Assembly (NCBI GenBank): GCA_018302705.1 | Contig: JAGVZI010000008.1 | Coordinates: forward strand, 1 to 39,816 | DNA: 39,816 bases | Origin: Candidatus Woesearchaeota archaeon | GTDB lineage: Archaea > Nanobdellota > Nanobdellia > SCGC-AAA011-G17 > ARS1403 | Reading direction: 5' to 3' | In this document: positions 24,056 to 35,931 of the stretch, one piece after another | Layout of the letters: each line of letters starts with the position of its first letter | How positions within the stretch are numbered: the first letter of the stretch is position 1 | Translations under genes and position numbers: made by a program | Notes under the pieces: generated by a model | What the model was told of the DNA's origin: nothing | Database searches by the model: none | Seen by the model: only the letters and a program-made list of their open reading frames with translations

Positions 24056-24154
24056 AGCCCCGTGGTCCAGCGGTCAAATTAATCTTGCAAAGATTAAGAC
24101 CATAGATACGGCCCTCTGGAGGCTGTGACCCAGGTTCGAATCCTGGCGGGGCTA
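24056..24154 (+). tRNA. tRNA-Gln(CTG) with 26-nt D-loop intron (24078-24103)
   Basis: Mature AGCCCCG TG GTCC AGCGGTCAA AGAT A CGGCC CTCTGGA GGCTG TGAC CCAGG TTCGAAT CCTGG CGGGGCT A (73 nt). BHB: GGTC-AAA-TTAATCTT/AAGATTAA-GACC-ATA. Confidence 0.88.
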
Positions 24155-24156
24155 TC

Positions 24157-24243
24157 GGGCTCGTGGTCTAGTGGCTATGAGGAAAACTAGCAAACACTGC
24201 TCTCACTCAGCAGAGATCGGGAGTTCGAATCTCCTCGGGCCCA
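24157..24243 (+). tRNA. tRNA-Val(CAC) with 14-nt D-arm intron (24180-24193)
   Basis: Mature GGGCTCG TG GTCT AGTGGCTA TGAC A CTGCT CTCACTC AGCAG AGATC GGGAG TTCGAAT CTCCT CGGGCCC A (73 nt). AGTG/CACT outer helix, GCTA/TAGC central helix, bulges TGA and AAA. Confidence 0.88.
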
Positions 24244-24245
24244 TT

Positions 24246-24353
24246 GCGCCAATAGTACAGTGGTTAGTATAGGGCCTTCCCAATAAGCTTCTAAGAAAAG
24301 CTTGAGAAAAAAGGAAAGAGGCTCTGACCGGGGTTCAAATCCCCGTTGGCGCA
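24246..24353 (+). tRNA. tRNA-Gly(CCC) with 36-nt intron at canonical 37/38 (24283-24318)
   Basis: Mature GCGCCAA TA GTAC AGTGGTTA GTAT A GGGCC TTCCCAA GGCTC TGAC CGGGG TTCAAAT CCCCG TTGGCGC A (72 nt). BHB central helix TTCC/GGAA, bulges CAA and AGA. Confidence 0.9.
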
Positions 24354-26946: not shown

Positions 26947-27087
26947 TGGGGCTGCCAGGATTTGAACCTGGGACTTCGAGTAAATTTTTTATCTCTCGAT
27001 CTATGAGTCTGGCTTGCTGATATAGACATATCAGTCGACAATGCTTAACATTGTTAATGTGCACCAGCCAAACTATGCTACAGCCCC
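26947..27087 (-). tRNA. tRNA-Ile(GAT) with three introns
   Basis: Mature GGGGCTG TA GCAT AGTTTGGCTG GTGC A CTCGA CTGATAA TCGAG AGGTC CCAGG TTCAAAT CCTGG CAGCCCC A (75 nt). Introns 27039-27058 (20 nt), 27001-27028 (28 nt, at 37/38), 26975-26992 (18 nt); 141-66=75. Confidence 0.87.
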
Positions 27088-27089
27088 AT

Positions 27090-27242
27090 CGCCCCCGGCA
27101 GGACTTGAACCTGCGACCAGAATCGCAAGCTTTAAGTTTGCTTGTCACGATATCGGCCTTAATAGGTAACAGTTTCACATTCATTTTAAGATGAAACGTG
27201 TGCTCTACCTATTGCTCCTTTATCTGTCTGAGCTACAGGGGC
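27090..27242 (-). tRNA. tRNA-Asn(GTT) with four introns
   Basis: Mature GCCCCTG TA GCTC AGTAGGTA GAGC A CACGA CTGTTAA TCGTG TGGTC GCAGG TTCAAGT CCTGC CGGGGGC G (73 nt). Introns 27212-27227 (16), 27174-27196 (23), 27152-27166 (15), 27120-27145 (26); 153-80=73. Confidence 0.87.
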
Positions 27243-27289
27243 ATAAAAATAAGGATATAGAAATTTCTCTTAAAAAGGTTTCTATCTTA

Positions 27290-33918: not shown

Positions 33919-35931
33919 TTATATCTTCTCTATGATATTCGGCTGCGGTTGGTAGATTGTACCATCTCTTTTTAGCAATTCCAATGCTTCGTTAACCTGC
34001 TCTTCACTTATGCCCTGCTCTGATGCTTCCATTATAATATCGTCTATAGGAATCCTCTTTCCAACTTTTTTGGTCAGCTCGTTAATTAATGCCTGTATTT
34101 TTACAATTTTGCTGCGCTGCGAAGTGGGAATACCGGTTGAGATCCGGTCTATATCCAGCTGCCCTGACTCTGGATCGAAGCCAACTTGCATCAAGCATCT
34201 CTTTAGCGTTTCAATTGCCATTTGCGCATCTTTTTTTGCCACCTTTTTTGATAGTCTGACGCGGGCTGACCCCTCTGCTAATCTAACTAATGCTTCTAAC
34301 TGGCGGGCTGAGATTGGAATTGGCCTCAAACCCTCCTCGCTTAAAGACGGCATGTTCCTTAGATTTACATAAAAATCTTTTATCTCTTCTACTGCTTCTT
34401 TTGTCAGCATTGGCTTTATTTTCTGTCTTGCATAAGAGATGTATTTTTTTAAAAACTCAGGAGAAAATTCTGCTTTAAGATCCTCTGGTTTTTGCTGCAG
34501 CATTAAGACATGCGTAGCAACCTTTGTATCAAACTCTCTTGAAGGAATATCACGAATTGGAAAAATTAAATCAAACCTGTTTATTAAAGTTGAGGGCATA
34601 TTTATCTGGGATGCAATTGGCAAATATGGATCAAACCTCCCTAGCTTTGGATTTGCCGCTGCGAGCAGTGTTGTTTGGGCTTTTAATGTCGCTTGGATAT
34701 TTGCTTTTGCAATTGTAATTATCTGCTGCTCAAGTGCCTGATGCAGCGCAGACGTATCTTCTTGATTTATCTTATCCATCTCATCTATTATGGCAAAACC
34801 TCCATTTGCCAAAACAAAGGCTCCTGCTTCCAATGCCCACCCACGCAAGAACTCATCTTTCACTACAGTCGCAGTCAACCCTGCGGATGATGCTCCTTTC
34901 CCAGAAACTAATCTTGCTTTAGGCGCTATTTTTGAGATAAACTGCAATAGCTGAGACTTTGATACTCCTGGATCACCAATCAGTAAAACATGCATGTCCC
35001 CCCTTCTTTTAGTACCGTCCTCATGAATCTTTTGAACCCCTCCCATTAACTGCAGGATTAAAGCAGCTTTAATATCTTCATGGCCATATATTGAAGGGGC
35101 TACTGAAGCAACAAGCCTTTGATATATCCTCGGATCTTTTGATAATTCCAGGATTTCCTCTTCCTCCTTTTTTGTGATATTTATTTCTTCAAATGTCTCT
35201 TCTATCGGCTCGATGTAATTTGATTCCATTACCAGATCGTACCTTGTAGAATGGCCGCCTGTCCTTAGAGGCATTGCAACCTCTTTTACAACTCCGGTTA
35301 TCTTTACCCTTGTGCCTGGCGCAGTCCTTCTCTCCATCTTTGGCTCGACTAAATCCCCTTTCAGAAAAATAGCCAATCTTTTAGGCTGCTCTCCACCTTC
35401 CAATGTTTCCGGAGATTCTTCCAGAACAACCCTTTGGGCATCTATCAAGTCTTTGTGTATAAGACGGAATTTTCCCCTTCTTCCGCAAGAGCATCTAGAT
35501 GGCTCGCGGAATTGTGTATCTATCTGCAACAGCAACATAGTATTGCCGCAAGAAGGGCATTCAAATTTTGCCGAGGTTACTTGAGGACGGACATCTGAAG
35601 TCTGCCTTACTAATCCTTCGACAGCGATAAATTTATCAAGATGAACAGACCTTATATCCCTAATCCTTAATTTGTTTACTAAAGGGAGGTTATTAAAACG
35701 AACTTTCAAGATATCAGAAGGCAAATCTAAGTTATCCAATGAAATTTCTGCTGCCTTTAAGAGATTTTCCGGGTCTTCCAATAGCAGATCTGCAAGCTCT
35801 GGATCATGGGTTAAAAGCTCATTAAAATCAAACAACACTGACTTTCCTCCTTTAGCTATCTCTTCATGTATCCTCTCTTTATAAGATTCAAAAAAATCGC
35901 GAAACCTTTCTAGCTGGTCAGAAGTTTCCAA
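33919..35931 (-). CDS. mcm: Replicative helicase MCM
   Basis: GDPGVSKSQLLQFISKIAPKARLVSGKGASSAGLTATVV, AIIDEMDKINQED, AAANPKLGRFD, RFDLIF. No intein. Confidence 0.97.
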   Translation of the reverse strand: METSDQLERFRDFFESYKERIHEEIAKGGKSVLFDFNELLTHDPELADLLLEDPENLLKAAEISLDNLDLPSDILKVRFNNLPLVNKLRIRDIRSVHLDKFIAVEGLVRQTSDVRPQVTSAKFECPSCGNTMLLLQIDTQFREPSRCSCGRRGKFRLIHKDLIDAQRVVLEESPETLEGGEQPKRLAIFLKGDLVEPKMERRTAPGTRVKITGVVKEVAMPLRTGGHSTRYDLVMESNYIEPIEETFEEINITKKEEEEILELSKDPRIYQRLVASVAPSIYGHEDIKAALILQLMGGVQKIHEDGTKRRGDMHVLLIGDPGVSKSQLLQFISKIAPKARLVSGKGASSAGLTATVVKDEFLRGWALEAGAFVLANGGFAIIDEMDKINQEDTSALHQALEQQIITIAKANIQATLKAQTTLLAAANPKLGRFDPYLPIASQINMPSTLINRFDLIFPIRDIPSREFDTKVATHVLMLQQKPEDLKAEFSPEFLKKYISYARQKIKPMLTKEAVEEIKDFYVNLRNMPSLSEEGLRPIPISARQLEALVRLAEGSARVRLSKKVAKKDAQMAIETLKRCLMQVGFDPESGQLDIDRISTGIPTSQRSKIVKIQALINELTKKVGKRIPIDDIIMEASEQGISEEQVNEALELLKRDGTIYQPQPNIIEKI

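Follow-up and report, generated by a model that had tools for sequence, protein, structure and literature searches.

The window analysed here is a stretch of 39,816 nucleotides (contig JAGVZI010000008.1 of assembly GCA_018302705.1) from a Candidatus Woesearchaeota archaeon, whose order is taken to be the Woesearchaeales. The genome, designated G000, comprises 851 kb on 34 contigs and is 97.7% complete, and the window also codes for topoisomerase VI, MCM, and class I tRNA synthetases. A gene of 153 nt for tRNA-Asn(GTT), in which five exons for a mature tRNA of 73 nt are separated by four short introns, was identified on the minus strand (27242 to 27090); the strand had not been given in an earlier note on this DNA. 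Exon 1 (27228-27242, mature nucleotides 1-15) is followed by intron 1 in the D-loop at position 15/16 (27212-27227, 16 nt), with the 4-bp core GCTC/GAGC and the bulges AG/A and AA/T; its inner helix consists of 1 bp only, and an outer helix is absent. Behind exon 2 (27197-27211, nucleotides 16-30), intron 2 at position 30/31 (27174-27196, 23 nt) contains the 4-bp core CACA/TGTG, an inner helix of 5 bp, and the bulges CG/T and AA/A. Exon 3 (27167-27173, nucleotides 31-37) carries the GTT anticodon and is bordered by intron 3 at the canonical position 37/38 (27152-27166, 15 nt), whose core CTGT/GCCG has one mismatch, as the earlier note had it and as was found again on re-parsing. Exon 4 (27146-27151, nucleotides 38-43) comprises 6 nt only. 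Intron 4 at position 43/44 (27120-27145, 26 nt) has the 4-bp core ATCG/CGAT, an inner helix of 5 bp, and the bulges TG/A and TC/T, and exon 5 (27090-27119, nucleotides 44-73) provides the variable loop, the T-arm, the 3' strand of the acceptor stem, and G73.

Removal of the four introns gives the 73-nt product GCCCCTGTAGCTCAGTAGGTAGAGCACACGACTGTTAATCGTGTGGTCGCAGGTTCAAGTCCTGCCGGGGGCG, in which all four stems are free of mismatches, with GTT within the loop CTGTTAA and G as the discriminator. Introns 15, 30, and 43, named here after the preceding mature nucleotide, combine 3-nt bulges with a full 4-bp BHB core, whereas the core of intron 37 has the one mismatch. The earlier note had proposed this parse of four introns of 16, 23, 15, and 26 nt with the same loop and discriminator, and it was borne out both by re-parsing and by the ortholog of a sister genome. 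With ARAGORN, the window gave no tRNA; the tRNA-Asn gene was missed by Rfam even at E=10, the T-arm excepted. Catalogues of tRNAs from such genomes would miss essential genes.

Since short BHB motifs permit several parses, the locus might be a real interrupted tRNA gene with another set of introns or another identity. The four-intron parse was the top result of a generic intron-plus-cloverleaf parser, with alternative parses scoring close to it; one of 70 dinucleotide shuffles of the gene interior scored above the real parse, so that the cloverleaf score by itself is weak and not decisive. For the ortholog in the same-genus genome G001, a two-intron parse with a different anticodon came out first when the generic parser was run with a narrow beam. 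The four-intron Asn parse, however, is the only one whose products in G000 and G001 nearly coincide, and the only one that matches the intronless or less interrupted tRNA-Asn of many relatives, with introns at the same positions. The product is identical in 64 of 73 positions to the intronless tRNA-Asn of G006, a member of the same family, and the spliced alignment to this tRNA scored 82, a value that none of 200 shuffles reached (their scores being 70 or less). A different intron set or identity is thus very improbable.

Slightly less probable again is a decayed pseudogene or an assembly artefact, in which the insertions would be noise and a normal tRNA-Asn would be present elsewhere in the genome. 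The standard finders are blind to the gene and the genome is a draft, which would fit this explanation. However, in the independently obtained G001 genome four introns are present at identical positions, with lengths of 16, 21, 15, and 26 nt. The D-arm and anticodon-arm exons of the two genes are identical, and changes in the acceptor stem and T-stem are compensated on both strands; introns 15 and 30 have diverged, with their core helices kept. The earlier note had pointed to two findings that would indicate a pseudogene or an assembly error: a sister genome without the insertions and with degraded arms, and a second intact tRNA-Asn(GTT). In G001 all four introns were found, with intact and co-varying arms, and no second credible GTT tRNA was found among the parsable tRNAs of the 97.7%-complete G000, although in a draft of 34 contigs an unassembled second tRNA-Asn is possible. 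Two low-quality parses were rejected as unlike tRNA-Asn, namely, a generic parse of locus L022 as Asn (anticodon ATT) and the second-ranked parse of a stretch at C7:2070 (anticodon GTT). A promoter-like block with BRE/TATA-like sequence, TAGAAACCTTTTTAAGAGAAATTT (27261-27284, minus strand), is identical upstream of the G001 ortholog, and the remaining upstream DNA has diverged between the two genomes. Together, the compensated stems, the kept cores, and the conserved block appear as those of a gene under selection.

A tRNA-Ile(GAT) gene of 141 nt (26947-27087, minus strand) starts 2 nt downstream of tRNA-Asn and contains three introns (27058-27039, 27028-27001, and 26992-26975), the positions of which are the same in G001. 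If both genes are cotranscribed, seven introns would lie within one stretch of 296 nt. On the plus strand of the window (24056-24353), genes for tRNA-Gln(CTG), tRNA-Val(CAC), and tRNA-Gly(CCC) are clustered with one intron each, and the introns of the Gln and Val genes are located at non-canonical positions. On contig C18 of the same genome, the best parse of a tRNA-Leu(TAG) gene with its T-arm at 34724 (L050) contains three introns. A stretch of 166 nt with the T-arm at C7:2070 (L281, G000:C7:1700-2300) has the perfect tRNA ends AGCGCGG...CCGCGCT A without a convincing parse, and is probably another multi-intron tRNA.

In the order, a D-arm pattern gave tRNA-Asn candidates in 50 of 103 genomes, a count from which genes escaping the pattern are left out. 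Intron positions in the relatives were obtained by a BHB-aware spliced alignment, which replaced the over-permissive generic parser. The number of introns in tRNA-Asn was found to range from zero to five. No intron is present in G006, G007, G016, G018, G024, and G029, one in G002, G020, G061, and G080, two in G049, G055, and G082, and three in G047, G048, G053, G071, and G072. Four introns were identified in seven genomes, with G000, G001, and G056 sharing the positions 15, 30, 37, and 43, and with the sets 30, 37, 43, and 59 in G003, 15, 30, 37, and 70 in G023, 15, 30, 37, and 59 in G058, and 15, 37, 48, and 59 in G073. Two genomes contain five introns, G068 at positions 8, 30, 37, 48, and 70 with full cores in all five, and G027 at positions 15, 30, 37, 44, and 53. 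The boundaries of the fifth intron of G027 are uncertain, since the core at its 44 site is poor (2 of 4 pairs), and a comparable weakness is seen at the 43 site of G056. Within its order, tRNA-Asn of G000 is not exceptional. As the same positions are present or absent in close relatives, with counts from zero to five, gain and loss of introns would be directly traceable in this order.

The core GCTC/GAGC of intron 15 is identical in 13 genomes, and this D-loop intron was also found outside the order, in families f23 and f64. For the cores at position 30, 54 of 56 pairs form in 14 genomes, compared to a mean of 50.9 when the intron halves are re-dealt among the genomes; the real value was attained in 19 of 2000 such rounds, and both-sided changes occur in two columns. 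Because the alignment scheme rewards BHB pairing, such counts lean toward pairing and are supportive only. At positions 43, 48, and 59, genomes were too few for co-variation to exceed the re-dealt controls, and positions 15 and 37 are uninformative in this respect, since their exon cores are invariant.

In two further genomes, a group I intron (RF00028) was identified in the anticodon loop of tRNA-Asn, in G011 at L160:317-512 (84.8 bits) and in G012 at L163:345-559 (84.2 bits), showing that more than one type of intron entered tRNA-Asn in the order. The archaeal group I introns surveyed in PMC6125680 were all located in rRNA genes. These two examples give some ground for removal of segments by a mechanism other than EndA, such as self-splicing RNA, but for the gene described here this is scarcely credible, since a ribozyme would not fit into its segments of 15-26 nt, and these segments show a 4-bp core flanked by 3-nt bulges.

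The reading as tRNA-Asn(GTT) with four BHB-type introns, proposed in the earlier note, is therefore the best supported one. Very probably the gene is functional and apparently single-copy, its four introns being cut by EndA and its exons joined by RtcB in an order implied by the folding of the precursor. The precursor would probably be transcribed from a promoter just upstream, with tRNA-Ile following 2 nt downstream. The sole detected EndA would cut each intron in its two 3-nt bulges, and RtcB would then join the tRNA-Asn exons.

In the predicted folding of the unspliced precursor, the cores of introns 15 and 43 have pair probabilities of 0.95-1.0, with 0.95-0.99 for that of intron 43, and intron 15/16 would be removable at any time. 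The 43/44 core falls to 0.02 if intron 37/38 is removed first, because intron 43/44 uses bases of the anticodon stem that refold upon removal of 37/38. The anticodon stem itself rises from 0.0 to 0.93-0.99 only after removal of introns 30/31 and 43/44, so that the stem framing 37/38 forms only without them. Introns 43/44 and 30/31 would thus leave ahead of 37/38. The probability of the 30/31 core is 0.02 or less in every splicing state, and that of the 37/38 core is about 0 in the precursor. Since neither of these two folds prevails thermodynamically in the precursor, they would need to be selected or induced by the enzyme. For the 30/31 core, the low probability would mean that either the model used for folding or the simple BHB picture has a weakness.

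For the cleavage step, an endA gene was identified in G000 (G000:C18:29866-30444, E 1.8e-102). Of 31 genomes, 29 gave one match each for a single-domain EndA of about 170-190 amino acids, and in none of them was there a second. No further EndA copy or beta subunit was found at E<=10 in 11 genomes, a search that a divergent beta subunit like that of Pyrobaculum could escape. G006 and G010 showed no endA match despite completeness ratings of 92% and 100%, and tRNA-Asn of G006 is intronless. In sequence, the Woesearchaeal EndA is closest to the catalytic subunit of Nanoarchaeum equitans and to the alpha4 enzyme of M. jannaschii. In a profile alignment, the loop insert comprises 7 residues in ARMAN-2 and 11 residues in 2CV8 and is missing from M. 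jannaschii, and the Woesearchaeal EndA contains neither the ARMAN loop nor the crenarchaeal loop insertion. As a loop-less single subunit for which no beta subunit was found, it matches the alpha4-type architecture of the M. jannaschii enzyme, which has a narrow specificity. According to Hirata, efficient removal of relaxed introns is confined to enzymes of the (alpha-beta)2 and epsilon2 types (PMC6379350). Intron 15 is nearly devoid of flanking helices, and one core pair of intron 37 is mismatched; consequently, the EndA is broader in specificity than its class, or a beta subunit has been missed, or the folds suffice. A lysine that is invariant in ten EndA sequences (K56 in G000) aligns with K161 of ARMAN-2, a residue required for cleavage in that archaeon (PMC12397907); this correspondence is a lead at the sequence level only.

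A number of archaea are known in which several introns interrupt one tRNA gene. In a tRNAscan-SE 2.0 survey, archaeal tRNA genes contained up to three introns, and two reviews give two or three (PMC8450103, PMC4033280, PMC6379350), in agreement with the maximum given for the Thermoproteales in the earlier note. For four introns in one archaeal tRNA gene, no report was found in the open-access literature, and the count is therefore higher than any published count found. In the Thermoproteales, Pyrobaculum and its relatives likewise contain several short BHB introns per gene at canonical and non-canonical positions, with a maximum of three (PMC8450103, PMC4033280). In contrast, the genes described here belong to a DPANN lineage and contain four introns in seven genomes, G000 and G001 among them, or five in G027 and G068, with an endonuclease that has no crenarchaeal loop and for which no beta subunit was detected. 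For the Asgard Atabeyarchaeia and Freyarchaeia, PMC11291895 describes introns in 92-95% of the tRNA genes, often at non-canonical positions and in over half of them several; some of these genes may have four, the counts per gene being part of its supplement. ARMAN-2 (Micrarchaeum), which also belongs to DPANN, has non-canonical and multiple tRNA introns (PMC12397907, PMC6379350); its epsilon2 endonuclease is built of three units with a specific loop containing Y160 and K161, whereas the Woesearchaeal EndA is single-unit and without the insertion. EndA of N. equitans (NEQ205/NEQ261, PDB 3IEY) is, among solved sequences, the one most similar to the catalytic subunit of the Woesearchaeal enzyme; however, N. 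equitans has a beta subunit, and none was detected in the 11 genomes searched.

An RtcB-type ligase is also encoded in G000, and its frame is of full length only after removal of two BHB-like inserts. These inserts of 28 and 30 nt (L279, G000:C26:9000-11200, minus strand) have full 4-bp BHB cores, and their excision restores the frame at GHWG-YGFPIGG and GIGFDIN-CGMRS; they are candidate BHB introns in a protein-coding mRNA. Tentatively, with the chances somewhat against it, the Woesearchaeales might exceed all lineages described so far in introns per tRNA gene (five, in G027 and G068); splicing would follow an obligatory order and be carried out by a loop-less EndA of one subunit, which current models regard as narrow in specificity and which would also splice the rtcB mRNA. 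If this is true, the ligase would be needed for its own production, and the loop-less EndA would break the proposed rule restricting efficient removal of relaxed introns to (alpha-beta)2 and epsilon2 enzymes. In the published view, non-canonical introns go together with endonucleases that have special loops or additional subunits, whereas the genomes described here show a simple EndA only. In this DPANN order, tRNA-Asn genes with four or five introns occur in several families and would be natural test substrates with a predicted order of splicing.

The second insert site of rtcB is also occupied in other genomes of the set. In G001 (L280, G001:C1:53300-56700), it contains an intein within a frame of 966 amino acids (GIGFDIN/CVSPKTKI...VSHN/CGMRS). 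In G068 (L262, G068:C6), an insert of 29 nt with the BHB core TTCG/CGAA was identified, the removal of which gives GGIGFDINCGMRLI. Two kinds of intervening element are thus found at this site, an intein in G001 and a BHB insert in G000 and G068.
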